This document shows, piece by piece, positions 13,938 through 56,316 of a stretch of 64,000 nt of DNA. The notes beneath the pieces were generated by a model. It was given only the letters and a program-made list of their open reading frames with translations, searched no databases and had not been told where the DNA came from. Location: contig NZ_CP077077.1 in the NCBI RefSeq assembly GCF_019139675.1, positions 4,774,001 to 4,838,000 of the forward strand. Reading direction: 5' to 3'. The DNA is from Pseudomonas maumuensis (GTDB lineage Bacteria; Pseudomonadota; Gammaproteobacteria; Pseudomonadales; Pseudomonadaceae). Each line of letters opens with the position of its first letter. Position 1 is the stretch's first letter. The position numbers were made by a program, and so were the translations under genes.

Positions 13938-14501
13938 TCAGGCGACAGGCGGCTCGAGCAGCAGACCATAAAGCCCCGAGTCAGACAGCTCACCGGCCAC
14001 GCACCAGCGCGCACGCAAAGTGCCTTCCAACACGAAACCCTGGCGCTCCAAGGTGCGCGCCGAGCCCTGGTTACGCGGGTCGATTTCCGCCTCCAGGCGG
14101 CGCAGGTGCAGGGTGTGGGCGAGGTAGTCGATGAAGCAGGTCAGCGCTTCGTCCATGTAGCCCCGGCCCTGGGCGGACTTGGCCAGGCAGTAGCCGATCT
14201 CGCCCCGGCGCGAGCCCTCTTCGAGGTTGAACAGCTGGACCATGCCGATCAACTCGCCGTTGTCTCGGCGGTACATGCCCAGCTTGAGCAACTGGCCGGC
14301 GGCATAGGCCTCGCGGTCGGCGGCCAGGGCGCTCTCGGCCTCGGCCAGGGTCTGCCAGGGGGCGTGGTACCAGTAACGCATCACTTCCGGGTCGGCCATG
14401 ATGGTCAGCCACTGCTGCGCATCGCCATGGCGCATGGGGCGCAGCTGCAGGCGTGGGCTGTCGAGGCACAGGTCGCTGGGGAAACTGCGGGGGTCGGGCA
14501 C
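13938..14501 (-). CDS. GNAT-family N-acetyltransferase (RimJ/RimL-like)
   Basis: A 187-residue protein with N-terminal SPRLQLRPMRHGDAQQW typical of RimJ/RimL-type GNATs, the central IGYCLAKSAQGRGYMDEAL containing the acetyl-CoA pyrophosphate-binding Q-G-R-G-Y signature (Q/RxxGxG/A type), and DPRNQGSARTLERQGFVLEG. GTG start at 14501. Acceptor could be a small molecule or a protein N-terminus; not determinable. First gene of a likely operon with the two membrane-protein paralogues. Confidence 0.83.
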   Translation of the reverse strand: MPDPRSFPSDLCLDSPRLQLRPMRHGDAQQWLTIMADPEVMRYWYHAPWQTLAEAESALAADREAYAAGQLLKLGMYRRDNGELIGMVQLFNLEEGSRRGEIGYCLAKSAQGRGYMDEALTCFIDYLAHTLHLRRLEAEIDPRNQGSARTLERQGFVLEGTLRARWCVAGELSDSGLYGLLLEPPVA

Positions 14502-14582
14502 GCCGGGACTCCTGTCCGGTGGTGAGGAGATGACAGTCTAACGACAGTGGCTCGGTCTGGCATCCCTGGGGCCGCTTTGCGG

Positions 14583-14655
14583 CCCTTTCGCCGGCAAGCC
14601 GGCTCCCACAGGCATTACACAAAACCCGGTGGGAGCCGGCTTGCCGGCGAAAGGG
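14583..14655. repeat. REP palindrome pair
   Basis: Perfect inverted REP arms, 14583-14609 and 14629-14655, lie between the acetyltransferase start and the small-gene module stop. Confidence 0.9.
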
Positions 14656-14673
14656 CTGCGCAGCAGCCCCCAT

Positions 14674-14925
14674 TCACCGCGCTCGATTCAACCCCAATTC
14701 CATGTCATCGATCAGCCCCTTGGCCAGCCCACTGAGAATCCGTGCGGCACTGCCGGCCATGAGGTCCCCTTCCATCTCCGCCTCGGTGGTGAAATGCGCC
14801 ACGCAGCCGAGCAACACCGACAGGTCGCCGAAGGCGTGGTCGAACGGGATGCCGGGCTGGATACAGAAGATCGCGAGGCAGGTGGTCTTGCCCTGGGTCG
14901 GGCCGGGTTTGAAGTCGTCGCTCAT
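14674..14925 (-). CDS. Small protein, second gene of module A (DUF3077-like)
   Basis: An 83-residue protein without signal peptide or membrane segment. It is clearly homologous to 55510-55761: shared PG(I/V)P...AF.(D/E)LSVL..C and H(F/L)TTEAEMEGDL, then GSAAR(I/M)LS..AK.LI.D.E.GL. The pattern resembles small pseudomonad proteins grouped as DUF3077; that assignment is from memory. Mostly helical by composition. Its ATG overlaps the stop of the upstream gene by four bases, as in the second copy. Function unknown. Confidence 0.72.
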   Translation of the reverse strand: MSDDFKPGPTQGKTTCLAIFCIQPGIPFDHAFGDLSVLLGCVAHFTTEAEMEGDLMAGSAARILSGLAKGLIDDMELGLNRAR

Positions 14926-15167
14926 ACCGGCGCCCCCTTGGCCCGGGCGTGGCGGACCAGCGAGATGACCAGTTGGCCGAGGATCTCGATGCTGTCCATC
15001 ATCACGTCGAGGCGCGCGTCGCGCTGGCAGACGGTGTAGGCGTGGACGGTGTCGCTGAGGATGTGCATCAGCTTGTTGGCATGGGCCATGGCGTCCTCGG
15101 GGTCGAGGTCGCTGATGATGGTGACGAAGGGGATTGGATAGGGTGGGTCGGGTACAAGTTTTTTCAT
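14922..15167 (-). CDS. Small protein, first gene of module A (MKKLVPDPP family)
   Basis: An 81-residue protein starting MKKLVPDPPYPIPFVTII, with a downstream helical region (HANKLMHILSDTVHAYTV, then EILGQLVISLVRHARA). The N-terminal MKKLVPDPP is identical to the protein at 55758-55997 and the helical C-terminus aligns. The ATG at 15167 is preferred to upstream starts because a clear GAGGAG lies 6 bases before it. No catalytic motif visible. Resembles pseudomonad DUF3077/DUF6124-type small proteins of unknown function. Preceded by a long conserved leader. Confidence 0.74.
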   Translation of the reverse strand: MKKLVPDPPYPIPFVTIISDLDPEDAMAHANKLMHILSDTVHAYTVCQRDARLDVMMDSIEILGQLVISLVRHARAKGAPV

Positions 15168-15494
15168 GGTTACTCCTCGAAATTGAAATTCAGGAACAAC
15201 CACCTTGATCCTTCTCACAGATTAGGGTGGCAGTCGTACGCATGGTGAGAAGCCCGTGTGTAACCATGAATCCACGGTCAGGCCAAAGCCTGCACGCGCA
15301 CGACCGCCATTGACGAAATCGACATGGTTCACACAACGGGCTTCTCACACCCGGTCGCCATATGTGACGACCCAGTGACGGTACCCCTGATGTATTTCCC
15401 GGCCAATTCAGAGCCTTCCGGCAGGCGCGAAGGATAGGTCCGAAGCGCTGGCTGGCTGAAGGATTTGGTTTCAAATTCGGAAATGTCTTACGGG
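15168..15494 (-). promoter_or_regulatory. Conserved structured leader of module A (candidate cis-regulatory RNA)
   Basis: About 325 noncoding bases, reading leftward into the small genes. Structure seen: a long stem whose arms are 15244-15268 and 15323-15351; an inner hairpin CAGGC-CAAA-GCCTG (15279-15292); a short hairpin made by GGTCGCCA and TGACGACC around 15353-15372; and a distal block (15380-15490) strongly conserved with the second copy at 56202-56312. The 7-mer TTCTCAC occurs at 15212-15218 and 15342-15348 and its complement at 15245-15251, allowing two alternative stems. The promoter is expected in the distal block but no boxes can be fixed. Confidence 0.6.
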
Positions 15495-15505
15495 TGTGGG
15501 TCGAG

Positions 15506-15869
15506 GTTTTGATCGCGTTATGGCGGCCAGGTGCTTGACGATGGCCTTGCAGCGCCTATGAGACCGAGCGCCGCCCGCGCGGCGCATCGCTGGCAAGCCA
15601 GCTCCCACATTTGTTTCCGGCCAGTCTGTCCTGTGAAGTTGTCGCTGTCCGCCTTGGTGCATGTCTTGAGACAGGTGGGACACCAGTGGCGCCCACACTG
15701 AAACCGCGTCGTACCCACAAGGCGTACAGCCGCGGCAGCGCAGGCATAACTGGCCCGAAACAAATGTGGGAGCTGGCTTGCCAGCGATGCGCCGCGCGGG
15801 CGGCGCTCGATCTTGTAGGCGCTGCAAGATTTGCGGCGAACACCTGGTGGCCCTGATGCGGTCAACAAC
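15506..15869. repeat. Large inverted repeat with extended REP-type arms
   Basis: The arms, 15506-15625 and 15749-15869, are about 120 bases each. The inner 60 bases are almost identical (core CATCGCTGGCAAGCCAGCTC preceded by CGCCGCCCGCGCGGCG) and the outer parts similar. They enclose 123 bases that encode nothing I can recognise. The arms look like an extended REP-family unit. The element sits upstream of module A and 3' of the giant autotransporter gene. Confidence 0.85.
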
Positions 15870-15944
15870 CCCCGCAGCCAAAAACCAGGAAAAGGCCGAA
15901 CTTGAGGTCGCCGGGGACTACAAAGCAGCCCCCCGCAAACTACC

Positions 15945-18900
15945 TCAGAACCCCATGCTGAAGCTCACCACCACGCCATGGTCACGGTTCTCGCTGGACA
16001 GCTGCCCGGAGTACCCGACCCCGAGCTTGCCGCTCGCGCCCACCGACAGGTCCACCCCGGCCTCGACCACCGCCGCGTCCTTGGCAATCGGCACACCCTC
16101 GGTGCTGAAACCGTCGCCGCCACCGATGAAGCGCAGATCGGCATCGGGCTTGTCGTCACCGAAGGCATGACGCCAGCCCACCGACAACCGCGGCGTGATG
16201 GTGCTGCCGTTGTCGAGCAGGATGCGCTTGCCAGCCCGCACGCCCAGGGTGGAGAAGGTCACATCCTGGTCGACCTTGCCCTCCAGCCGCCCTGCCCCGC
16301 CCTTCTCATGGGCGGTGTCGCTGTCGTAGTTGACATACGCCAGCCCGGCGAACGGCTCCAGGGCAATGCCGCCGGCATCGATGGCGTAACCCACCTCACC
16401 GAACACCTGGGCGCTGCGCGCCTTGTACTTGGCCTTGAGGCGGTCGTCGTAGCTGCCGACGGTGACATCGCGCTTGGTGTCGATGTCGTGCCAGCTGTAG
16501 GCCACGCCCAGGCGAGCGGCGAAGGCATCCAGCTGGTAACCGAGATAGGTGGTCAGGTGGTAGCTGTCCACCGTGGCGTCCGAGCGGCGACGGTGCGCGT
16601 CGATGCTCGAGCGGGTGTAGCCGGCGGCGGCACCCACTTTCCACTCATCGTCCAGCGCGCGGTCCACACCGAGCATGAAGCCCGACAGGTCGCGGTCGAC
16701 GCTGGCATGGCTGCTGCTGCCGTCGTAGGTGCCCCAGCCGCCGATGGCACGGATCCAGCCCACGGCCTGGCCCTGGCAGCCTTCGCTGGTCAGTTGCTGG
16801 TTGGCGGTCGGCGCCAGGGTGCGACGCGGGTCGTCCTGGTTGGTGCAATCGGCCTGACGCAGGCGGTCATTGACCGCGTCGCGGACGTAGCGTGAGTCCT
16901 CGATCAGCACGGTCGCGGTGCTGGCGTGGATCTCGCCGGACAGGCTGTCGAACGCCGCCTGGGCGCCCTGGCGGTCCAGCGGCAGCAGGTTGTTGACCAG
17001 TTCGGCCGGCGCTCCGGCACTGGCCAGCGCGGTGGCCACGCCACGCTGGTTGCCAGTAGCGGCGACATCGGCGAAGGAGTTGCCGTTGCGGCTGACGGAC
17101 AGGGTCACCTGGTTGGCGCCGTAGTTCAGCGAGCTGTTGAGGAACGCCGAGTTGGCCAGGTTGGTGGTGGCGAAGGTGCCGTTCACCCCACCCGCCGCGC
17201 TGACCACGGTGTACTGGCCGTTGCCACTGGCCAGGTTGGCGACCATCAGGCTGCCGCCGAGGTTGGCGGTGCCGCCCACATTCAGGTAGTTCACCGGCGA
17301 GGTGCCGAGGTCGATCACCAGGGTGCCGGTGGCGCCGTTGGTGAAGTTGCCCGACACGTTCAGGTTACCGGCAGGCCCTGGCAGCACGGTGCCGTTGTTG
17401 GTCAGGCCGGCGACGGTGCCGTTGCCGGTCAGTGCGGCGCCATTGGCCACTGTGACCTGGGCTGCGAGGTTGCTGCCCGGATTGGCCGCATCGCCCACCT
17501 GCAACACGCCTTGGTTGACGTTGAAGGCGCCACTGAACGGCTGGTTGCCAGTCAGCAGCAAGGTACCACCGCCCTGCTTGGTGGTGGTGCCAGTACCGCT
17601 GAGAGTGCCGTTGAAGGTGCCATTGCTGCCTTGGGCGAAGACCAGGTTGGCATTGTTGAGGATGCTGCCCTGCAGGCTGGTGGTGTTGCCGACCAGGGTA
17701 CCGCCACTGACGGTGGTGCCACCGCTGTAGGTGTTGGCGCCCGAGAGGATCAGAGTGCCAGCGTCGAGTTTCTCGATGCCGCCGCTACCGACCAGCGGCA
17801 CGCTGACGGTGGCGGTGGCACCAGCGTTGACACGCACCGACGCCAGGCTGCCATCGGCACCGTTGACCGGCGTCAGGCTACCGCCAGCGCCAGGCACGAC
17901 CTGGTAGCCGTTGCTGAGGAACTGCAAGCCCTCGAACGACTGGTTGCCGACCACGGTGACGGTGCCAGAGGTACCGCCGAAGACCGCGTAGCCACCACTC
18001 CAACCTTCGCTGCTGGTGCCACCGGCGTTGGTCCACCCGGTATTCGGCCCCCAGGTTCCGCTGCCACCGCCGATGCTGCCGTCGGGATTGATCTTGCCGC
18101 CATTCCAGAACTGCAGCTCTTCGCCGGCGTTCTGTACCACCAGGTTGATCTGGTTGGCGATGGCAGTCTGCAGGCTCAGGTCACCCAGAACCACGCTGCC
18201 CGGAATCGCACCGAACACCAGGCCGTTGTCGGTGAGCGTGCCGCCGTAGCTGAACAGTTGGTAGACACCGGTGCCGAAGCCACCGGCATCAGTGATGTTC
18301 AGCGTGCCGTCCAGCACCAGGTTGCCGTTGACCTTGACCACGGTGGTGGAGGCCGCCGGGGCGCCGAGGCTGAAGTCCAGGGCGCTGCCCGACGCCAGGT
18401 CGAGGCTGCCGACGGTGAGCGGCGTGGCGCTCTGGCCGGCGGCCAGGGTGGCGCCATTGGCGATCTGCACCGCGCCGCCATAGGTACCGCTGCCGCCCAG
18501 GCGGGCGCCGGTGGCGACCTGCACGGTGGCACTGTCGAGGCGGCCATTGACCAGCAGGCTGCCGGCGTTGACCTGGGTCGCGCCGGTCAGGCCATTGATG
18601 CCGGTCAGCAGCAGTTCGCCAGTGCCGTTCTTGGTCAGGGTGCCAGTACCGGTGAGGTTGCCGGTGTAGCTGCCGTTGGCGTTCTGCTCGAAGGTCAGGG
18701 CCGCGTTGTTGAGGATCGCGCCTTGCAGGCTGGTGGTATTGCCCACCACGCCGCCTGCGTTGACCTGGGTGCCGCCGGTGTAGGTGTTGGCACCGTTCAG
18801 TGTCAACAGGCCAGCGCCATTCTTGATCAGCCCACCGGTGCCGCTGACCACGCCGTTGAGGGTCAGGGCGTTGCTGCCGCCGATGGCCAGGGCGCCGTTG

Positions 18901-21900
18901 AGCACGGCATTGTTGGCCAGGGTCACGGCGGTGTTGCTGTCCAGCGTGGTGCCGCCCGCGGCCGTCAGGGCGCCACTGCCCAGCGCGCTATCGTTGCCTA
19001 GCACCAGAGTGCCGCCGTTGAGGGCGGTACCGCCGCTGTAGCCATTGGCAGCGTTGAGCACCAGGGTGCCGCCGTCTTGCTTGGCGACGCTGCCGGTGCC
19101 GTTGAGGGCGACGTTGAGGGTGGCGGTGACGCCGCTGTCGACCCGCAGGTTGGTGGTGCCGTTGCCCAGCAGTTCACCGGCCGTCCCTGCATTGAGCACG
19201 TAGCCGTCGGTGACGAACTGCAGGCCGGTGATGTTGTGGCTGCCGTTCACGGTGACGGTGCCGGGGGCGCCCTGGAACACGGCGAAGGTGTCGTTCCAGG
19301 TGCCGTTGAGCACGCCGTTGGCGTCGGTCCAGTTGGTGTTGGTGGCATCCCAGACGCCGCTGCCGCCCTCGATCACACCGTTGGCCACGGTCTGGCTGCC
19401 GTCCCAGAACAACACGTTGCTGGCGCCACCGACCACCAGGTTGACCTGGTTGGCCACGGCGGTCTGCACCGTCAGGTCGGTGACCGGCACCGGCGTGGTG
19501 CCGAAGCTCATGCCGTTGTTGGTGAGGCTGCCGCCGTAGGCGAACAGTCGATACACGCCGGCGCCGAAGCCGCCGATGTCGGTGACGTTGAGGGTGCCGC
19601 CCAGGGTCAGGTCGTTGGCCACGTTGACCAGCGGTGTGCTGCCAGCCGACGGTGCGCCCAGCGAAGCGTTGAAGTTGGCGCCGCTGTCGAGCACCAGGCT
19701 GCCGGCATTCAGGGTGCTGCCGCCGATGGCCGCCAGGTTGCCGCCATTGGCCACGGTCACCGCACCACCGAGGCTGCCGGCACCGCTGAGGGTGGCGCCG
19801 CTGGCGACGTTGACCGTGCCGCTGGCCAGGGACCCATCCACCTTCAGCCCGCCGCCTTGCACGTTGGTATTGCCGGTGTGGCTGTTGGCGCTGCGCAGCG
19901 CCAGGGTGCCGGCGCCGAGTTTGTTCAGGGTGCCAGTGCCACCGATATTGCCATCGAAGGTGCCGCCTTCGACGTTCAGGCTGTTGCCAGCGGCGATGGC
20001 GATCGCACCAGTGCCTCCTATGTCACCCAGTGTGGTGTTGCCGTCGAGGTTGAGGCTGGCGCCACTGCTGACGTTCAGCTCGCTCTGGGTGCCCAGGGCG
20101 GTGGTGCCGACGGTGCTCAGGCTGCCGGACAGGATATTGAGGATGCCGCTGAAGGTGTTGTTGCCCGACAGCGTCAGGTCAGCCAGGCCGCTCTTGTTCA
20201 AGGTACCTGCACCACTGAGCACGCCGGCCAGGTGCAGGTCGTTGCTGCCCAGCACGTTGAGCACGTCGCTGACATTCACCGAGTTGGCCAAGGTGACGGC
20301 ACTGGCACTGTCGAGGTTGGCGTTACCGGTGACGTCCAGGCCACCGCTGCCAAGGGCGGCATCGTTGCCCACCACCAAGGTGCCGGCCTGCAGCTCGGTA
20401 CCACCGCTGTAGGTGTTGGCGCCCATCAGCGCGAAGCGGGCGACGCCGGCCTTGAGCAGGCGGCCGCTGCCGCCGACGGTGCCGCCGAGGGTCAGGTCGT
20501 TGCTGCCCAGGATCGTCAGGTCACCGGTGGCGTTGACGTTGTTGGCCAAGGTCACGGCCTGGCTGCTGTCCAGGCTGGTGCCGGCCACGGTGTTCAGGCT
20601 GCCGCTGCCCAGTGCGGTATTGGAGCCCAGCACCAGGGTGCCGCCGTTGAGCGCGGTGTTGCCGGCATAGGTGTTGTTGCCAGCCAGCGCCAGCCGGGCG
20701 CTGCCAGCCTTGACCAGGCCACCGGCGCCGCCGATGTTGCCGCCCAGCGCCAAGTCGTTGCTGCCGGCGATGTTCAGCGGCCCCGCCAGGGTGATGGCAT
20801 TGGCCAGCGTGACCGAGGCATTGCTGTCGAGGGTGGTACCCGCCGCGGTTTCAAGCGCACCGCTGCCCAGGGCCGTGTTGCTGCCGACGATCAAGGTACC
20901 GCCACTGAGCACGGTACCGCCGCTGTAGCTGTTGCTGCCGTTGAGCACCAGGGTACCGCTGTCGAGCTTGTTGAGCTTGCCGACGCCGGTCAGGCCGACA
21001 TCGAGGGTCGCCGTGGCGCCCGGATCGACCCGCACGCTGGTGTCGCCACTCGCGCCGTTGATCAGGTCGAGCGCACCGGCGGTGCCCGCCAGCAGGCGGT
21101 AGCCATCGCTGACGAACTGCAGGCCGTTGACCGTCTGGCTGCCGTCGACGGTGACATCGCCGGCAGTGCCCTGGAACACCGCGAAGGTGCTGCCCCAGGT
21201 GGTGTTGGTCAGGCCGTTGAGGTCGGTCCAGTTGGTATTGCCGGCGTTCCACACGCCGGCACCGCCGTCGACCTGACCGTTGGCCACGTTCTGGCTGCCA
21301 TCCCAGAACTGGATATTGAGCCCCGCAGCGCTGACCAGCAGGTTGACCTGGTTGGCCAGGGCGGTCTGCAAGCTCACGTCGCCCAGGCCCACACCCAGCG
21401 GCAGGCTGCCGAAGTCCAGACCGTTGTCGGTGAGGGCGCCGGTGTAGTCGAAGACGCGGTACACACCGTTGCCGAAGCCGCCGATACTGCTCACGTTGAG
21501 CGTGCCGTCGAGGGTCAGGTTGCCACCGACGTTGAATAGCGCGGTGCCGCCAGTGGACGGCGAGCCGAGGCCGATATCGACGATCGAACCGCTGTTGAGC
21601 ACCAGGCTGCCGAGGCCCAGGGTCGCGCCGCTCTGCCCGGCCAGGTGGCCACCGTTGTCGATCACCACCGAGGAATTGGCGGTGCCGCTGCCGGTGAGGG
21701 TCGCACCACTGGCCACGGTCAGCAGGTTGCTGCCCAAGGTGCCATCGACCTTCAAGGTACCGGCGTTGACCAGCGTGTTGTCGGCCAGGTTGCTGGTGCC
21801 GGTCAGGGTCAGGGTGCCGCTGCCGACCTTGGTCAGGCCGCCCAGGCCGTTGAGACCACCGGCGAAGGTGCTGCTGAGGTTGTTGCCGCCCAGGCTCAGG

Positions 21901-24900
21901 ACGCTGCCGCCCCCAACATCGACCAGGCCGCTGCCGGTCAGGCTGCCGAGGCTGGCGTTGCCGTTGAGTTTGAGCTGGCCGCTGGCGCCGACGTTGAGGG
22001 TGTCGACGTTGGCCAGCACACCGCTGCCGAGGGTGGTGAGGGAGCCCGCCTGGATGTCGACGTTGCCGGTGAAGGTCTTGACGCCGACCAGGGTGAGGTC
22101 GGCGACGCCGGTCTTGACCAGGTTGCCACCGCCGCCAAGGTCGCCGCTGAGGATCAGCGCATTGGCGGCTTCGATAGTCAGGTTGGCACCGTTGCTCAGG
22201 GCGATGGTGTTGCCCAAGGCCATGGCCGAGCTGTTGGCCAGGGTGGCGTCGGCGGTGACCGCCAGGGTGCCGGTACCCAGTGCGCCGCTGCTGCCCAGGG
22301 TCAGGCGCCCGGCGTTGAGCTGGGTGCCGCCCTGGTAGCCGTTGTTGCCATTGAGGGTCAGGTTGCCGCTGCCGTTCTTGGTCAGGCCTGCCGTGCCGTT
22401 GATCACGCCGTTGAGGGTCAGGTCATTGCTGCCATCGACTGTCAGGCCAGCGTTGAGGGTGACGTTGTTGGCCAGGGTGGTGCTGGCGCCGCTGCTGAGG
22501 GACGAGACCCCGGCGACGGTCAGGGCGCCCTGCCCCAGCGCGTTGTCGTTGCCGACCACCAGCCGGCCTGCACCGAGGGTGGTGCCGCCCAGGTAGCTGT
22601 TGGCGCCGTTGAGGGTCAGGGTGCTGGCACCGGCCTTGTTCAGGCCGCCGACGCCATCCACCACGCCGGTGAGGGTCAGGTCGGCGCTGCCCGGCAGGTT
22701 GAGGGTGCCGCCCAGGTGCACGTTGTTGGCCAGGGTAGCGCCCGCACCGCCAGCATCGAGGCTGGTGTTGGCGCCGGTGCTGAGGTCGCCGCTACCCAGC
22801 GCGGTGTTGCTGCCGACCACCAAGGTGCCGGCGTTGAGGGTGGTGCCGCCGCTGTAGGTGTTGTTGCCGTTGAGGGTCAGGCTGGCGGCGCCGTTCTTGA
22901 CCAGGCCATTGCTGCCGGAGACCACGCCGTTGAGGGTCAGCGCCTGGCTGCCGCCGAGGGTCAGGTTGCCACCGGCGAGATTGACGGCATTGGCCAGTGC
23001 CAGTGCCTGGCTCGCGTCGAGGCCGGCTGCGCCGGTGACGGTCAGGGCGCCGCTGCCCAGGGCGCCGGCGTTGCCCAGCAGCAGGCTGCCGGCCTGCAGC
23101 GAGGTGCCGCCGGCGTAGGTGTTGCTGCCATTGAGCACCAGTTGCCCGGCACCCAGCTTGTTCAGCGCACCGGCACCGCTGATGACACCATCGAGGGTCA
23201 GGGCCTGGGTGTTGTTGACGCCGAGAGTGGTACCGGCGCCGAGGCCGATGGCGTTGGTCACCTGCAGCACGCCGGTGGTGGCCAGGGTGCTGTTACCGGT
23301 CACCGACAGGCTGCCCGTGCCCAGGGCGGTATTGTTGCCCAGCGTCAGGGTGCCAGCGCCTAGTGTGGTGGTGCCTTGGTAGGTGTTGGCGGCGCCGAGG
23401 GTCAAGTTACCGGTACCGGTCTTGGTCAGGCCGCCGGTACCGCTGATCACGCCGTTCAATGTCAGGTCGTTGGTGCCGGTCAGGCTCAGGGTGTCGTTCA
23501 GCGCCACCTGGTTGGCCAAGGTCAGGGCGCCGGTGGTGGCCAGGTTGCTGGCGCCGCCGACGGTCAGGCTGCCGGTACCCAGGGCCTGGTTGTTGCCCAG
23601 GGTGAGCGTGCCGGCATTGAGGGTCACGCCGCCAACCAAGGTGTTGGCGCCACTGAGGGTGAGGTTGCCGGCACCGTTCTTGGTCAGGCTGCCGGCCCCC
23701 GTGACCAGCCCGCCCAGGCCCAGGTCGTTGCTGCCGGCGATGGTGAGGTTGCCCCCCAGGTTGACGGTGTTGCCGATAGTGATCGTCGAGGCGCTGTCCA
23801 GGGTGGTCCCGGCAGCCGCGTTGAGCTGGCCGAGGCCGAGGGCGCTGGAGCTGCCGAGCACCAGGGTGCCGGCATTGAGATTGGTGTTGCCCAGATTGCC
23901 ATTGGTGCCGTTCAGGGTCAGGGTGCCGCTGCCGGTCTTGGTCAGGCCGCCGACGCCGGTGACGTTGCCGCCCAGGGTCAGGTTCTGCGCCCCGGCGACG
24001 GTCAGGTTACCGGCCAGGTTGATCAGGTTGGCCAGGGTGACGTTGGCATTGCTGCTCAGGGTAGTGCCGCCGGCTGCGTTCAGGGCACCCGTGCCCAGCG
24101 CCGTGTTGCTGCCGACCACAAGGGTTCCGCCGTTCAGGCTGGTAATGCCCTGCTGGCTGTTGCTGCCGTTGAGGGTGAGCGTGCCGGCACCGCCCTTGAT
24201 CAGGCCACCGGTGCCGCTCAGCGCACCGTTGAGGGTAAGGTCGTTGCTCCCCGGCAGGGTGAGGTTGGCGTTCAGGGCGATAGTATTGCCCAGCGCCAGG
24301 TTGCCGGTGGTGGCCAGGCTGGCGGCGCCGGTCACGGTGAGGCCGCCAGTGCCCAGGGCCTGGGCGTTGCCCAGGGTCAGGGTGCCGGCACCCAGGCTGG
24401 TGCCGCCGCTGTAGGTGTTGGCATTGCCCAGGGTCAGGTTGGCGCCGCCGTTCTTGATCAGGCTGCCAAGCCCCGAGACCACACCGGACAGGCCCAGATC
24501 GGCGGAGCCGGCGACGGTCAGGGCACCGCTGAGGCTGAAGGCGTTGCCGAGGGTGACGGATGTATTGCTGTCCAGGGTAGTGCCGTTGGCGGTGCTGACC
24601 GCGCCGGTACCGAAGGCGGTGTTGTTGCCGACCACCAGCGTGCCGCCATTGAACAGGGTGCCGCCGGTATAGCTGTTGGCGCCATTGAGCACCAGCGTGC
24701 CACTGTCGAGCTTGGCCAGTTGGCCGCTGCCAGAGAGGCCGACGTTGAGGGTCGCGGTGACACCCGGGTCGACACGCACGGCAAAGGCGCCGTTGCTGCC
24801 GTTGACCAGGTCCAGGCCACCAGCGCCGATCAGGCGATAGCCGTTGGTGACGAACTGCAGGCCAGTGACGGCCTGGGTGCCGACCACGGTGACATCGCCC

Positions 24901-27900
24901 GCAGTACCCTGGAATACCGCAAAATCGCTAGCCCAGCTGCCGTTGAGCACGCCGTTGACATCGGTCCAGTTGGTGTTGCCACCGTTCCAGGTACCGGAAC
25001 CGCCATCGATCACGCCATTGGGCACGGTCTGCGCGCCATCCCAGAACTGCACGGTGCCACTGGCGCCGCCGACCAGCAGGTTGATCTGACTGCCAATGGA
25101 GGTCTGCACCTGAAGGTCGCCGGGCAACATGACGCCCGGCACGTTGCCGATCAGCAGGCCGTTGTCGACCAGCGCGCCAGTGTAGTCGAACAGGCGGTAG
25201 ATACCGGTGCCGAAGCCGCCGAGGTCGGTGACGTTGAGAGTGCCGTCCAGGGTCAGGTTGCCATTGACGTTGACCAACGCGGTGCCGCCGGTGGCCGGCG
25301 ATGCCAAGCCGAAGTCGAGGATCGAGCCGCTGTGCAGGGTCAGCGCACCGGTGCCGAGGGTCGCGCCGCTGTTGGCCAGCAGGTGCGCGCCGTCGGCGAT
25401 GTCGACCGCGCCCAGCAAGCTACCGGTGCCGCCGAGGCTGGCGCCGCTGTTGACCTGCACGTTGGCGCTGGCCAGCGAGCCGGTGACGTTGAGCAGGCCG
25501 GCATTGACCGTGGTATTGCCGCCGAGCACGTTGACGCCGGACAGTTCGAAGCTGCCGGTACCGGTCTTGACCAGCCCGCCACTGCCGGCCAGGGCACCGC
25601 TGAACACGCTGTTGAGGTTGTTGCCGCCCAGGGTCAGGGCACCGCCGCCGGCGATGTTCACCGTGCCGGCCCCGCTCAGGCCACCGATGGTGGCGCTGGC
25701 GCCGAGATTGAGGCTGGTGCCGGCGCCGACGCTGACCGCCGAGGTATTGCCCAGGGCCGTGCTGCCGACCGTGGTGATGCTGCCGCCGAGCAGGTCGATG
25801 GCGCCGCTGAAGGTGTTGTTGCCAGTGAGTGTCAGGTCGGACACGCCGTTCTTGATCAACCCGCCGGTACCACTGAGCACACCGCCCAGGGTCAGGTTGT
25901 TGCTGCCGCCGAGGGTCAGGTTGGCGCCGAGGTTGACGTCGTTGCCCAGGGTCATCGCCACGCTGTTGGCCAGTGTCGAGGCGCTGCCGACGTTCAATGC
26001 GCCGGTGCCCAGCGCGGCGGCGTTGGCCAAGGTCAGGGTGCCGGCATTGAGGTTCAGGCCACCGCTGAAGGTATTGGCGCCGCTCAGGGTCAGATTGCTG
26101 CTGCCGTTCTTGGTCAAGGCCCCGGCACCGCTGATTACGCCGCCCAAGGTCGTGGTGTTGTTGCCTGGCAGGGTCAGGGTAGCGCCGTTGCCAAGGGCGA
26201 TGGCGTTGCCGAGGTTGAGGGTGGCGCTGGAGTCGAGGCTGGCATTGCCGCCCACGCTCAAGGCGCCACCACCGATGGCGTTGTTGTTACCCAGGACCAG
26301 GGTGCCGGCATTTAGGGTGGTACCACCGCTGTAGGTGTTGTTGCCGTTGAGGGTCAGCGCGGCGCTGCCGTTCTTGACCAGCGCACCGCTACCGCTGATG
26401 AGACCGCCGAGGGTGGTGGCGTTGCTGCCCAGCACGGTCAGGGTATTGGCGCCGAGGTTGATGCCGTTGGTCACGGCGACGGCGGTGCTGGCGTCGAGGT
26501 TGGCGTTGCCGCCCACGGTCAGGGCGCCGATGCCCAGCGCGGTGTTGCTGCCCAGGGTCAAGGTGCCGGCATTGAGCTGGGTGCCGTTGGTGTAGAGGTT
26601 GTTGCCGCTCAGGGTCAGGTTGGCGTTGCCATTCTTGACCAGCGAACCGATGCCGCTGACCACGCCGCTCAGGCCCAGGTCGGCGCTGCCATCGATGGTC
26701 AACGGGCCGGCGATGTTCACGTCGTTGGCCAGGCTCACCGCCGTATTGGCATCCAGGTGGGTACCGGCCAGGGTACTGAGGGTACCGGTACCCAGCGCAG
26801 TGTTGCTGCCGACCACCAGGGTACCGGCGTTCAGGCGGGTGATGCCGCTGTTGCTGTTGTTGCCGGTCAGGGTCAGTGTGGTGCCGCCATTCTTGGTGAT
26901 GCCGCCGGCACCGGCGATGACGCCGCTCAGGGTCAAATCGTTGCTGCCGGGCAGGATGAAGTTGCCCGCCAGGTTGAGCGCGTTGCCAAGGTTCAGCCCG
27001 GCCACGCTGGTGTCCAGCGTGGTGTTGTTGGCGGCGTTGAGCGCACCGGTGCCCAGTGCGGTGTTGCTGCCGACCACCAGGGTGCCGGCGTTGAGGGTGG
27101 TGGCGCCACTATGGGTGTTGTTGCCGCTCAGGGTCAGGGTGGCGCTGCCATTCTTGACCAGGCCGCCAGTGCCGCTGAGGGTGCCGGCCAGGGTGAGGTT
27201 GCTGGTGGTCGGCAAGGTCAGGTCGGCACCGAGGTTGACGGCGTTGTTCAGGGTCATCGCCGCCGAGTTGGCCAGGGTCGACGCACCACCGACCGTCAAC
27301 GCGCCGGTTCCCAACGCGGCGGCGCTGGCCAGGGTCAAGGTACCGGCATTGAGCGTGAGGCCGCCGCTGAAGGTGTTGGCGCCGCTCAGGGTCAGGTTGG
27401 TGGCGCCGTTCTTGACCAGTGCGCCGGTACCGCTGATCACACCGCCCAAGGTGGTGGTGTTGCTGCCTGGCAGGGTCAGGGTGTTGCCGGCGAGGTTGAT
27501 GGCGTTGCCCAGGTTCAGGGTGCCGCTGCCGTCGAGGCTGGCATTGCCGCCCAGGGTCAGGCCGCCGGTGCCCAGGGCATTGCTGTTGCCCAGGGTCAGC
27601 AGCCCAGCGTTCAGGGTGGTGCCGCCACTGAAGGTATTGTTGCCATTGAGCGTCAGGCTGGCACTACCGCTCTTGACCAGGGCGCCGGTGCCGCTGATCT
27701 GCCCGGTCAGGGTGGTGGCGTTGCTGCCCAGCACGGTCAAGGTGTTGCCGCCCAGGCTGATGCTGTTGGTCGCCGAAACGGCGGTACTGGTGTCCAGGTT
27801 GGCGTTGCCGCCCAGGGTCAGGCCGCCGATGCCCAGTGCGGTGTTGCTGCCGAGAATCAAGGTACCGGCATTGAGCTGGGTGCCGTTGGTGAAGGTGTTG

Positions 27901-30900
27901 CTGCCACTCAGGGTCAGGCTGGCATTGCCGTTCTTGACCAGCGAGCCGATGCCGCTGATCACGCCGCTCAGCCCGAGGTTGGCAGTGCCGTCGATGGTCA
28001 GGGGGCCGGCGGCAATGACGTCGTTGGCCAGGCTGACCGCGGTGCTGGCATCCAGGTGGGTACCCACGGCGGTGTTGAGGATGCCGGTACCGAGCGCCGT
28101 GTTGTTGCCGACCACCAGAGTGCCGCCGTTGAGGAAGGTGGAACCGCTGTTGGTGTTGGCGCCGGTCAAGGTCAGCGTGGTGTTGCCGGCCTTGGTCAGG
28201 CCGCCGCTGCCGGCGATGACGCCACTCAGGGTCAGGTCGTTGCTGCCGGGCAGGTTGAGGTTGCCGGCCAGGTTCAGGCCGTTGCCGATGTTCAGCCCGG
28301 CGACGCTGGTGTCCAGGCTGGTGTTGGCCGCGGCGTTGAGCACGCCGGTGCCCAGCGCGGTGTTGCTGCCCAGCACCAGGGTGCCGGCGTTGAGCGCGGT
28401 GGCGCCGCTGTGGGTGTTGTTGCCGCTGAGGGTCAGGCTGGCGCTGCCGTTCTTGACCAGGCCGCCGGTGCCGCTGAGGGTCCCGGCCAGGTTGAGGTTG
28501 TTGGCGCCTGTCAGGGTCAGGTTGCCGCCCAGGTTGACGGCGTTGCCCAGGGTCAGCGCCGCCGTGTTGGCCAACGTCGACGCGCCGCCTACGGTCAGAG
28601 CGCCGGTACCCAGCGCCGTGGCGCTGGCCAGGGTCAGGGTGCCGGCGTTGAGGGTGAGGCCACCGCTGAAGGTGTTGGCGCCGCCCAGGGTGAGATTGGT
28701 GCTGCCGTTCTTGACCAGCGCGCCGGTGCCGCTGATCACACCACCCAGGGTGGTTGCGCTGGTGCCAGGCAAGGTCAGGGTGTTTCCGGCCAGGTCGATG
28801 GCATTGCCGAGGTTCACCGCCACGCCCGCGTCGAGGCTGGCGTTGCCGCCCAGGGTGAGGCCGCCGGTGCCCAGGGCGTTGTTGTTGCCCACGGTGAGGA
28901 CACCGCTGTTGAGGGTCGTGCCACCGCTGAAGGTGTTGCTGCCGTTCAGGGTCAACCCGGCGCTGCCGTTCTTCACCAGCGCGCCGGTGCCGCTGATCAC
29001 GCCGCCCAGCGTGGTGCTGCTGGTGCCCAGCAGGTTCAGGGTATTGGCGCCGAGGTTGACGGCGTTGCCCAGGCTCACGGCGGTGCTGGCGTCCAGGCTG
29101 GCGTTTGCGCCAAGGGTAAGAGCGCCGGTGCCCAGGGCGTTGCTGTTGCCGACGGTGAGCTTGCCGGCATTGAGGGTGAGGCCACCGCTGAAGGTGTTGT
29201 TGCCGTTCAGCGCCAGGTCCCCTGCCCCGCTCTTGACCAATGCACCGGTACCGCTGATCACGCCACCCAGGGTGGTGGCACTGGTGCCGAGCAGGTTCAG
29301 GGTGTTGGCGCCAAGGCTGATGGCGTTGCCCAGGCTTACCGCGCTGCTGGCATCGAGGCTGGCGTTGCCACCCAGGGTCAGCGCGCCAGTGCCCAGCGCA
29401 CTGCTGTTGCCGACGGTAAGCTTGCCACCCGCCAGGCTGGTACCGCCGCTGTAGGTATTGACGCCATTGAGGGTAAGGTCGGCGACGCCAGCTTTGGCCA
29501 ACGCACCGGCGCCGCTGATGATGCCGCCCAGGGTGGTGGCATTGTTGCCGGCGAGGGTAAGCGTGCCGGCACTCAGGGCAATCGCGTTGCCCAGGTTGAG
29601 CGCCGAGGTGCTGTCCAGGGTGCCGCTACCGGTCACGGTCAGGGCACCACTGCCCAGGGCCGTGTCGCTGCCCAGGATCAGCGTCCCGCCATTCAAGGTG
29701 GTACCGCCGCTGAAGGTGTTGACGCCGTTCAAGGTCAGGTCACCGGTACCGCTCTTGACCAGTGAGCCGGCGCCGCTGAGCACGCCGCCAAGGGTCAGCG
29801 CGTTGCTGCCGGGCAGCGTCAGGGCCGCGTTCAGCGCTACCGCATTGTTCAACACCAGCGGCACGCTGCCTTGCAGGCTGCCGGCGCCACTGACCGTGAG
29901 CCCACCGCTGCCGAGCGCCGCGGCGCTGGTCAGGTTGAGGCCGCCGGCGGCCAGGGTGGTGCCGCCACTGTAGGTGTTGCTGGCGCCAAGGGTGAGCAGC
30001 CCGGCACCGGTCTTGGTCAAGCCGCCGACACCCGAGACCACGCCATTGAGGGCCATGTCGGTGGCGCCGCCCACGTTCAGGCCGGCATTCAAGGTCAGCG
30101 CGTTGTTCAGGCCCAGGCCTGCCACTGTGCCCGCGAGACCACCGCCGTTCACCGTGATGCCACCGCTACCGAAGGCACTGGCGTTGTCGAAATTGAGCAA
30201 GCCACCGTTGAGGGTGGTCTGGGTGGTGCCGTTGAGCAATTGCCCGATCAGCGACCAGGTACCGCTGTCGACGATCAGGCGGTTGAAGTTGATGTAGTTC
30301 GAGGCGTTGATGGTGCCGCTGCCCGTGGTGCCACTGCCGCCACCGATGGCGTTCTGCAGCGCCAGGGTGTTGGTGCCGCCGGCACCGCCGTCGACCACGC
30401 CAGCAGGCGCGAAGCCCAGGTTGGGGTTACTGGTGACCAACAGCGACACACCAACACCCGCCCCCGCGCTTAGGCTGGAGCCAGTGATGGCGTTGAAGCG
30501 GTTGGTGCTGCCCGCGCCCATGGACAGGCTGCCGGTCAGGCTCCCGGCGTTGGTGAAGGTGTTACCGGCCGCGGACGCCTGAAATGCCGTGCGCCCCAGC
30601 ACGGTGCCGGTGTTGGTGAAGTTCACCGTGCCGCCACCGCTCACGGCGATGACCGGGGTGTCTTCGCTCACGATCGTCAGGCTGGCCAATGCCGTGGAGC
30701 CGATGCTGCCGGCGTTGCTGATGGTGGTGACACCACCGGCTGCGTTACGCACGTCCATCGCCATGCCGGTGAGGTTCAACAGGCTCGCGCCGAGCACCGC
30801 GCCGGTGCCGCGGATCACGCCCGTGGCATTGTTGGTGATGTTGATGGTACTGGCAGTGCTGGTGTTGCCAATCACGGCACCGGTGGACTGGATACTCAGG

Positions 30901-47137: not shown

Positions 47138-48301
47138 ATGCGACGTCCATCCCGCCTCCTCGTCCTTACCGCCCTTGTCCTCGTTCTGTTGGTCGCCATC
47201 GGCACCTGGCTGGGACAGCGCCGCGAAGCGCCGGCCAACCGCGGCGCCAGCGCCATACCGGTGCGCGTGGTGGCGGTGGCCCAGCAAGACGTTCCACGCT
47301 ATTTGAGTGCCATCGGCTCGGTGCTGTCGCTGCACAGCGTCGAGGTGCGTCCCCAGGTCGAGGGCGTACTGACCCAGGTGCTGGTCAAGGAAGGCCAGTG
47401 GGTCAGGCAAGGCGACCTGCTGGCCACCCTCGATGACCGGGCGATCCGCGCCAACCTCGACCAGGCCCGCGCCCAACTCGGCCAGACCCAGGCGCAGTTG
47501 CAGGTGGGCAACGTCAATCTCAAGCGCTACCAACTGCTGAGCACCGATGACGGCGTATCCAAGCAGACCCTCGACCAGCAGCAGGCGCTGGTGAACCAGT
47601 TGCAGGCGACGATCAAGGGCAACCAGGCGGCCATCGACAATGCCGCGGTGCAACTCAGCTACACGCAGATCCGCTCGCCGGTGACCGGCCGCGTTGGCAT
47701 CCGCAACGTCGACCCCGGCAATCTGGTGCGCACCAGCGACACCCAGAGCCTGTTCAGCGTTACCCAGATCGACCCTATCGCCGTGGCATTCGCCCTGCCC
47801 CAACAACAACTCCCGGTCCTGCAGGGTCTGCTGAAATCACCCACACCCGCCGAAGTCGAGACCTACCTGGACGCCGACGGCGAACGCAGTCTGCTCGCCA
47901 GGGGCCACTTGACGTTGATCGACAACCAGGTATCGGCCACCACGGGCACGGTGCGGGTCAAGGCCGAGTTCGACAACAAGGACGGCCGCCTGTGGCCCGG
48001 CCAACTGGTCAGTGTGCGCCTGCGCACCGCCGTGGACGAAAGCGCTCTGGTGGTGCCACCACCGGTGGTGCAACGCGGCCTCGACGGCCACTTCGTCTAC
48101 CGCCTGGAGGGCGACAAGGTCACGGCAGTGCCGGTCAAGCTGGTGTACCAGGACAGCACATTGAACGTCATCGCCGGGGTCAAGGCCGGGGACCGCCTGG
48201 TACTCGATGGCCAATCGCGGCTCAAACCCGGTTCGACGGTGGAAGTCGTGCCCGATGCCGCAGCCCCCGCCGAAGTCGCCGACAGCAGGAGCCAGCCATG
48301 A
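47138..48301 (+). CDS. RND efflux periplasmic adaptor (membrane fusion protein)
   Basis: A 387-residue HlyD/MdtA-type protein: N-terminal signal-anchor (about 5-22), lipoyl halves around [20 protein letters not shown] and [18 protein letters not shown], coiled-coil hairpin between them, then a beta-barrel domain. ATG at 47138 is chosen to begin at [10 protein letters not shown]. It links the inner-membrane pump to an outer-membrane channel, which is not in this cluster. Stop overlaps the pump start (ATGA). Confidence 0.9.
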
Positions 48302-55509: not shown

Positions 55510-55761
55510 TCAACTGTTTCTTTTCAGTCCTGTTTCCAGGTCATTGATCAGCGCCTTGGCCATGGCACTGAGCATCCGCGCCGCACTCCCTGCTTTCAGG
55601 TCCCCTTCCATTTCCGCCTCGGTGGTCAGGTGCAGGATGCAATCCTGCAATACCGACAGCTCATCGAATGCCCGGCTCAAGGGCACACCCGGCAGCACGC
55701 GATAACATTCCAGGAAGGTCTCGTCGCCAGCGGTGACGGGCATATCGGGCTGCTCGCTCAT
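55510..55761 (-). CDS. Small protein, second gene of module B (DUF3077-like)
   Basis: An 83-residue protein homologous to 14674-14925. The closest stretch is TTEAEMEGDLKAGSAARMLS and the LSVL..C block. Same length, same position, same four-base overlap with the gene before it. No localisation signal. Function unknown. Confidence 0.72.
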   Translation of the reverse strand: MSEQPDMPVTAGDETFLECYRVLPGVPLSRAFDELSVLQDCILHLTTEAEMEGDLKAGSAARMLSAMAKALINDLETGLKRNS

Positions 55762-55997
55762 GGCTGCACCTCCAGCGACCTGGCGTGAGCCATCAGGCAG
55801 CTCAGCAGCCGGCTGAGGATGGAAATGTTCTCCACCAGGATCTCGGGACGCTCATCCACGGGAAAGGCCATGTAGACATCGCAGGTGCGGGTCATCATGG
55901 TCATCAGGACTGCGGCATGCTCCCAGACTTCGGCGAGGGGCAGATGGTCGATGATGGAGATGTAGGGGATGGGTGGGTCAGGTACCAGCTTTTTCAT
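55758..55997 (-). CDS. Small protein, first gene of module B (MKKLVPDPP family)
   Basis: A 79-residue protein with N-terminal MKKLVPDPPIPYISIIDHL and helical C-terminus (ILSRLLSCLMAHARS). The first nine residues are identical to the module A partner; the middle has diverged. It lacks an obvious GAGGAG of the module A kind directly before the ATG, the sequence there being AT-rich, so translation may depend on the leader. Function unknown. Confidence 0.74.
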   Translation of the reverse strand: MKKLVPDPPIPYISIIDHLPLAEVWEHAAVLMTMMTRTCDVYMAFPVDERPEILVENISILSRLLSCLMAHARSLEVQP

Positions 55998-56316
55998 TTT
56001 GAATGGCTCATGTCGATTGAGGAAATCGCCACTTGAACCTTTCTCACGGGATTAGGTGGCAACCGTGCACGGGGTGAGAAACCGAGGACATGGAACCCGG
56101 CCAGACCAAAGGTCTGCCCGAACACGGCTGCCATTGAGTGGCCGAAAGACATATCGTCAGGTTCTCACACCCGGTCACCAAATTTGGCGACCCAACGACG
56201 TTAGCCCTGATGCATTTCCCGGCCTATCCAGCTCCTTCTGGCAGCCGCGTAGGATAGGTCGCAAGCACAGCGCGACTGAAGCACTTGGTTTCAGATTCGG
56301 AAATGTCGTACGCCGT
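55998..56316 (-). promoter_or_regulatory. Conserved structured leader of module B (candidate cis-regulatory RNA)
   Basis: Aligns with 15168-15494 over its length. Equivalent elements: long stem arms 56072-56091 and 56149-56170; inner hairpin CAGACC-AAA-GGTCTG (56102-56116); short stem around 56173-56192 (GGTCACCAAATTTGGCGACC); distal block 56202-56312. The 7-mer TTCTCAC at 56041-56047 and 56162-56168 flanks its complement GTGAGAA at 56074-56080, as in module A. Conserved GCCATTGA lies in the central loop. Confidence 0.6.

Follow-up and report, generated by a model that had tools for sequence, protein, structure and literature searches.

Why should two very small genes be preceded by a stretch of noncoding DNA longer than either of them? 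The question arises twice within the window (the whole 64,000-nt stretch of Pseudomonas maumuensis DNA that was analysed), in modules referred to here as copies A and B. The original prediction described two small genes with an ATGA overlap behind about 325 noncoding bases, and this is true of copy A (81 and 83 codons) and of copy B (79 and 83 codons), in each of which gene 1 and gene 2 share the 4-nt overlap. The coding parts are as follows.

14922..15167, minus strand: gene 1 of copy A, MKKLVPDPP protein, 81 aa; no Pfam match over cut-off
14674..14925, minus strand: gene 2 of copy A, DUF3077 protein, 83 aa; PF11275, 30.7 bits (gathering cut-off 21)
55758..55997, minus strand: gene 1 of copy B, MKKLVPDPP protein, 79 aa; no Pfam match over cut-off
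55510..55761, minus strand: gene 2 of copy B, DUF3077 protein, 83 aa; PF11275, 34.3 bits (gathering cut-off 21)

The leader is indeed the longer part, as homology to the relatives with species names starts at window positions 15491-15493 in seven of the nine aligned (15494 in the earlier account). A degenerate DNA pattern for MKKLVPDPP, with up to 3 mismatches allowed, hits the window at exactly these 2 places, and 100 shuffles gave no hit. The nine codons differ between the copies by three silent changes (AAA/AAG, CTT/CTG, CCC/CCT), and these silent-only differences indicate that the peptide itself is kept.

At curated cut-offs, Rfam finds 2 RNA matches in the 64-kb window, both to C4 (RF01695) and one in each leader. 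We therefore predict that both leaders hold a C4 antisense RNA, of the family known from phages P1 and P7; the scores, both over the cut-off of 45 bits, place the conservation of the leader beyond chance. The view of the module as a duplicated one holds for the window, which has two copies, but falls short for the whole genome, where 16 C4 loci lie over the cut-off and 1 below it. The C4 elements and their predicted pairing sites are listed below; the coordinates of C4 in copy A are those of the Rfam match and are somewhat longer than the expected mature RNA.

15336..15348, minus strand: a1 site of copy A, upstream of C4, GTGAGAAGCCCGT; 13-nt complement of C4
15323..15334, minus strand: b1 site of copy A, GTGTGAACCATG; nearly complementary to CATGGTTACAC of C4 (one base extra), paired in the leader fold
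15223..15314, minus strand: predicted C4 antisense RNA of copy A; RF01695, 58.0 bits
15260..15270, minus strand: b' address loop of C4 in copy A, TTCATGGTTAC; exact 11-nt complement of b2
15245..15252, minus strand: a' address loop of C4 in copy A, CTTCTCAC; reverse complement of a2
15211..15218, minus strand: predicted a2 target site of copy A, GTGAGAAG; 8-nt complement of a', 4 nt past the Rfam match
15163..15173, minus strand: predicted b2 target site of copy A, GTAACCATGAA; 11-nt complement of b', covering the start codon of gene 1
56052..56138, minus strand: predicted C4 antisense RNA of copy B; RF01695, 65.9 bits
56074..56081, minus strand: a' of C4 in copy B, TTTCTCAC; pairs over 8 nt with a2
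56040..56047, minus strand: predicted a2 of copy B, GTGAGAAA; 8-nt complement of a'
56009..56014, minus strand: weak and short candidate for b2 in copy B, GACATG; pairs with b' over 6 nt only, some 11 nt before the start

The combined a2...b2 pattern of copy A occurs a single time in the genome, and its a1 site lies inside a match to c4-a1b1 (RF03163) of 27 bits, below the cut-off of 46.7. Compared with copy A, copy B has a C-G to U-A change on both sides of the a'/a2 pairing (TTTCTCAC/GTGAGAAA vs CTTCTCAC/GTGAGAAG). The b arm of copy B is less clear: the pairing-score script favoured a stretch other than 56009..56014, and two relatives (L378 and L392) have 8 nt paired at the candidate site, with one G-U. 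Given a full a' arm and a b arm of 6 nt only, silencing of copy B may be weakened.

Both C4 RNAs fold far better than their shuffles (z of -4.65 for copy A and -5.60 for copy B, with -4.66 for C4 of P1). The minimum-energy structure of the copy A C4 folded by itself has the long outer stem, yet parts of the a' and b' loops are paired in it. In the fold of the longer leader (z -4.34), these loops are taken up by the a1b1 stretch further upstream, so that two competing states are possible.

This arrangement resembles the immI region of phages P1 and P7 in the RNA family itself, the upstream a1b1, the a2 site right after C4, the b2 site at the ribosome-binding site or start codon, a first ORF about 50 nt after C4 and the ATGA overlap that leads to a second gene. 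The phage P1 record has a1 at 48255-48261, b1 at 48269-48276, c4 at 48343-48419, a2 at 48423-48429 and b2 at 48452-48459; a2 lies 3 nt after the mature c4 and directly after its Rfam match, and icd 50 nt after c4. Since icd (48470-48691) ends beyond the start of ant1 (from 48688), P1 has the same 4-nt overlap as the window copies. The window modules differ in being chromosomal and multi-copy and in having DUF3077 as gene 2; in copy A, gene 1 has no alignment to Icd, and gene 2 reaches E 0.16 against Ant1 in a single comparison. C4 of P1 is described as a trans-acting RNA that represses Ant synthesis (PMC8546580; PMC8198154) and, as told in PMC5320573, is processed by RNase P. We also noticed that the a' heptamer of P1 (L202), CTGTCAA, is present at three loci of the source genome (G000 3891850, 3918002 and 2588739).

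Each copy is thus very probably an operon of the chromosome that is built like c4-icd-ant of P1 immI and kept silent by a C4-type antisense RNA of its own. This reading draws on four features that can be read from the DNA, namely the match of the leaders to the C4 family, the order of the elements, complementarities that co-vary and the conserved position of the gene; processing, action in trans, repression and coupling are the steps that we infer. A single transcript would carry a1b1, C4 and both genes, and RNase P would excise C4 at the conserved AUGG site, a step known for P1. Once free, C4 would bind its own mRNA at two sites, a2 through a' and b2 through b', and thereby cover the ribosome-binding site or start codon of gene 1; translation of gene 2, tied to that of gene 1 by the ATGA overlap, would stop as well. 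The a1b1 stretch can engage these C4 loops while they are still part of the precursor, and would serve as a decoy or a folding brake. Expression of the genes would be confined to times when there is little C4 or a1b1 sequesters it. The RNA-based control that was suggested originally is strongly supported on sequence grounds, with the leader identified as a putative C4 antisense RNA whose matched targets fall at the ribosome-binding site or start codon. Weighing against the reading are the short b arm of copy B, the c4-a1b1 score below its cut-off, the partly paired loops of C4 in copy A, the promoter and terminator scan with no match and, in the larger set of loci that follows, the modest b1 pairing, the loci with no ORF at the expected place, the C4s of this genome that miss the arm thresholds and the poor ranking by duplex energies.

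The layout and the pairing were followed across 146 C4 loci tabulated from 8 genomes, including the source genome (a partial match, G176:338638 or L186, was left out of 147); without two duplicates, 144 loci are unique. In 124 of the 146 loci C4 is followed, at a distance of 38-62 nt (a range set after seeing the data), by the start of an ORF of 40 aa or more, compared with 32-48 of 146 for seven shifted windows, and the other 22 loci have no ORF at the expected place. A leader found mostly without genes, which the original prediction had named as evidence against itself, is therefore not what these loci present. The motif P[DN]PP falls within the first 12 residues of the ORF in 68/146 loci, and ATGG stands at the 5' end of C4 in 132/144.

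The covariation that had been proposed as a check proves to be strong between address and target across the C4 loci. The a' loop complements a2 over at least 6 nt in 136/144 loci, and in 113 of these 136 the address recurs exactly upstream as a1 (mean 7.3 and maximum 15 with random partners). The b' strings hardly repeat, with 131 distinct ones among 144 loci, yet their mean pairing score with their own b2 is 20.2, against 14.8 for permuted partners (standard deviation of the permuted means 0.18). Among the 111 loci with a b2 score of at least 16, b2 touches positions -14 to +2 of the start codon in 104, a count given without a control for position. By ungapped pairing of a' and b' together, a locus ranks its own target strictly first in 89/146 cases, with 7 more tied, where about 8 are expected. 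At arm thresholds set after seeing the data (a 15, b 18), the a' arm passes in 133/144 own pairs and 363/3342 foreign pairs, and both arms pass in 105/144 own pairs and 43/3342 foreign pairs. Within the source genome, 13 of the 16 C4s match their own target by both arms and 3 miss the threshold, with 0/240 foreign pairs matching. The b1 site pairs modestly better than permuted partners overall (19.4 vs 17.3). Duplex energies that allow bulges separate own from foreign targets poorly (own target best or tied in 43/146 by a' and b' together, 46/146 by b' and 9/146 by a', the last at chance level), so ungapped pairing was used afterwards. A third complementarity was observed in the 144 leaders and in P1, between a GGTGGCAGCT-like segment and the 3' strand of C4; it reaches at least 7 bp in 119/144 leaders (controls 32-63) and hardly co-varies by locus (18.3 vs 17.7 permuted).

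The converse test started from gene 2. A scan of 84,980 GTDB species genomes found 90 relatives, of which 80 loci were kept, all from records named Pseudomonas. In 73 of the 80 (60/60 and 13/20), the strand of the gene has a C4 over the cut-off upstream of it. The seven loci without it (L342, L344, L349, L355, L359, L369 and L406) have at most 305 bases upstream of the gene, because the contig ends there. Of the 73 loci that have C4 upstream, the first 60 were scored for arm pairing; the a arm reaches at least 7 nt in 59 of them and the b score at least 16 in 54, counts that stand without a permuted control. At the level of whole genomes, DUF3077 is found in 155/199 and in none of the 15 without any C4 match, which, with genomes treated as independent, would have a probability of 1.7e-11. 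Here the converse has exceptions, as 29 of the 199 genomes have C4 but no DUF3077, and in G037 DUF3077 is present with a sole C4 match below the cut-off. Nine of the 80 DUF3077 loci (L355, L363, L367, L369, L370, L373, L377, L384 and L403) are close to tmRNA (ssrA), a common integration neighbourhood.

Closer relatives of copy A allow the b arm to be compared letter by letter. Among those that also align to flanking DNA of the window, on one side or both, are P. soli (L327) and P. mosselii (L328), both with b'/b2 of TTCATGGTTAC/GTAACCATGAA, Pseudomonas sp. GD03858 (L329) with TGGTTGGAA/TTCCAACCG, P. sichuanensis (L333) with TGATTGGAG/TTCCAATCG and UFMG81 (L334) with TTTCATGGTGTTT/GAACACCATGAAA. 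In P. entomophila (L330), where the module alone aligned, the pair is TGTTCGGGA/TTCCGAACG. Some of these pairs include G-U pairs. The predicted b'/b2 pairing is kept in the copy A relatives while the letters change on both sides.

The proteins under this control are less well defined. Pfam describes both DUF3077 (PF11275) and DUF6124 (PF19619) as families of unknown function; DUF3077 is mentioned for a frameshift change in P. putida (PMC9630843). Among the open-access papers searched, none was found that ties C4 to DUF3077 or DUF6124 genes in Pseudomonas. Genes 1 and 2 were first taken as paralogues, with a profile comparison that included intermediate C4-linked proteins giving a probability of 96.4% and E 1.2e-9; the stricter comparison of close relatives alone did not bear this out (probability 1.2%, E 0.045, same register). 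AlphaFold2 predicts two long helices each for gene 1 (pLDDT 83.5) and gene 2 (pLDDT 88.3) of copy A, and Foldseek returned no match at E of 0.001 or below for gene 1 in PDB or for gene 2 in PDB and the viral set. By analogy with Ant, we would guess that such two-helix products bind and antagonise other proteins.

A wider scan at E 0.01 covered 54 proteins, the four of the window plus 50 encoded at other C4 loci. It took in 52 of 68 protein clusters together with the two window gene 2 proteins; the 16 remaining clusters are mostly short or out-of-frame-looking ORFs. The scan gave 22 DUF6124, 13 DUF3077 and 3 Bro-N matches, with some proteins matching both DUFs. The three Bro-N proteins are all in genome G005; one stands behind a C4 below the cut-off, and one begins with MIKVTPNPP, the start typical of many C4-linked small proteins. 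Three C4-linked proteins match phage anti-repressor families in PHROGs and are presumably these same three. Across 65 loci chosen because P[DN]PP occupies residues 6-9, the codons used for proline are not constant, which points to the N-terminal peptide being kept; translation might conceivably pause at this early run of prolines. The claim that the leader is the selected part is half right, since conservation is seen in the family's proteins too.

If the small proteins were harmful and the antisense RNA were their antidote, each unit would be a type I toxin-antitoxin or addiction module, a role close to the toxin-antitoxin-like pair raised in the original prediction. This alternative concerns the role of the proteins and is compatible with control by C4. 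In its favour, an antisense RNA would mask translation of a small gene, and the units are multi-copy, with numbers that differ greatly between genomes. Type I toxins are small proteins, usually with one membrane helix, whereas none of the four window proteins has a membrane-type hydrophobic stretch (highest 19-residue mean 1.53). The icd product of P1 inhibits cell division (PMC8198154), but gene 1 of copy A has no similarity to P1 Icd, and overall we regard a toxin-antitoxin role as unlikely.

The complementarities could also fold within one transcript as a purely cis-acting attenuator or translational switch that releases no free antisense RNA. The a1b1, C4 and a2b2 stretches do lie on one RNA, the longer fold of copy A does pair a1b1 with C4, and the conserved leader segment can pair with the 3' strand of C4 in most leaders. 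On the other hand, the C4 fold and the AUGG site are kept, some tandem C4s lack a gene of their own, C4 of P1 is described as trans-acting (PMC8546580), and the C4 homologues of Acinetobacter baumannii look processed in RNA-seq (PMC5320573). We consider a leader of this kind quite improbable, and favor silencing by a released C4.

A third alternative sees the chromosomal C4s as a bank of antisense immunity against incoming phages or satellites that have C4-controlled operons. Phage sequences were also searched for the modules themselves. Among 50,697 phage records, two DUF3077 queries gave no match and a DUF6124 query gave one, L324 (EU982300). This DVM-2008 record from P. fluorescens Q8r1-96 has a C4-linked DUF6124 gene beside a prtR repressor gene. 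Part of a C4 leader has counterparts of 69-78% DNA identity in four Pseudomonas phage records. When IMG/VR was scanned with a pattern, at least 84 sites in 80 loci came up, many of them followed by TPNPP-type ORFs; among the sites listed, one precedes a DUF3077-like ORF and a few are clearly not C4. With matches on the phage side and on the chromosome side, the modules occur in both worlds. The four phage records, the action of C4 in trans in P1 (PMC8546580) and the recurrence of the P1 a' heptamer at three loci of the source genome are all consistent with an immunity bank. However, most C4s have their own gene and a target in cis, and nearly all b' arms differ, which leaves this alternative a slim chance at best. 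That the modules are prophage remnants with no present function is highly improbable: C4 is a phage element, three C4-linked genes of G005 encode Bro-N antirepressor-type proteins, gene-less C4 copies exist and gene 2 matches the virus family phrog_36471, but of 10 ORFs near copies A and B seven match ordinary chromosomal families (LysR, YdcZ-type exporter, GNAT, OprD, GGDEF, aminotransferase and signal peptidase) and three match none, close paralogues keep at least 80% protein identity while fourfold sites fall to about 0.69, and changes on both sides maintain the pairing.

Chromosomal operons silenced by their own C4 appear to extend through the genus. C4 is found in 184/199 genomes drawn from the same genus, over the cut-off in 183, with 20 candidates scored per genome, so that counts per genome are minimum values. 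In 7 genomes with 150 candidates scored each, there are 10, 42, 15, 24, 20, 4 and 15 C4 matches, 39 of the 42 being over the cut-off. Among genomes drawn from the order, C4 is found in 20/145, the source genome among them. In loci that were read in detail, matching sites also follow C4 in many cases, and some of the ORFs look like KilA-N or Bro-N from their translations. Tandem C4s, some of them gene-less, were observed at G000 C1 4898424-4897937, L147, L176 and L345, and are possibly trans-acting or decaying. When trans-targets were sought for two gene-less C4s of this genome, one gave 1 match (3 for the reversed control) and the other none.

Weinberg et al. 2010 list C4 for Proteobacteria and phages (PMC2864571). 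The window leaders match the same RNA family as this Rfam C4 / c4-a1b1 motif, and the passages on C4 in that survey (PMC2864571) name no Pseudomonas gene family, copy number or address system. A closer parallel is A. baumannii AB5075, with 21 related Group 1 C4-like sRNAs, 15 of them full-length, which are C4-like in all folded but three, apparently processed and variable in a' (PMC5320573). Its authors weighed incoming phages or bacterial transcripts as targets; the passages of PMC5320573 on these sRNAs leave the targets open and name no linked gene. Unlike in that account, most Pseudomonas C4s come with a matched target and are followed after about 50 nt by a small gene, which suggests that the Acinetobacter C4-like RNAs merit a re-check for matched targets just downstream. 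A known RNA family thus appears, from these sequence comparisons, in a much expanded chromosomal role in Pseudomonas: C4, known from phage immunity, emerges as a putative genus-wide chromosomal control system with a few to dozens of units per genome. The units would amount to a ready-made natural collection of two-part antisense switches, largely orthogonal to one another, and they give a first handle on DUF3077 and DUF6124, predicted to be silenced by default and freed when C4 is lost.

How a new copy comes to have an address of its own was approached through 35 paralogue pairs within genomes, with protein identity of at least 80% and with members shared between pairs. Their b' identity is 0.67, against 0.65 between unrelated loci, while fourfold codon sites keep a memory of common origin (0.69 vs 0.41), as do the stems (0.79-0.81 vs 0.69-0.75) and the a' region (0.83 vs 0.71). 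The a' core itself differs in 22 pairs, is identical in 10 and differs in length only in 3. Of 21 non-overlapping pairs (protein identity at least 0.7), only 9 have a raw b' identity lower than that of their fourfold sites. Because of this and of the shared members, selection for private addresses is held as a hypothesis and not as a result, and gene conversion of the coding parts is a possible alternative to fast address change. With somewhat less than even confidence, we suggest that Pseudomonas chromosomes carry a large, partly orthogonal set of antisense-silenced units in which new or duplicated copies must change address to escape a resident C4, and that addresses would then diversify by selection faster than the genes under their control. 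Such a change of address to escape resident silencing can be likened to phage heteroimmunity, and rapid re-addressing after duplication becomes directly testable.

Some features around copy A are recorded here in their own right. A scan of 14560-15700 gave no sigma-70-like promoter or terminator. Beside the leader, a long imperfect inverted repeat spans window positions 15546-15828, with similar stretches around the copy A relatives L329, L331 and L333-L335, and it triggers sub-threshold Rfam miRNA matches. The Rfam matches to MIR918, mir-2290, gntR-DTE, MIR2619, CRISPR-DR28, KCNQ1OT1_1 and AS-pc02 within 14500-15950 are all below their cut-offs and were taken as chance. Directly upstream of copy A lies a single repetitive ORF of 5094 aa (15945-31229, minus strand), which is autotransporter-like by reading of its sequence.
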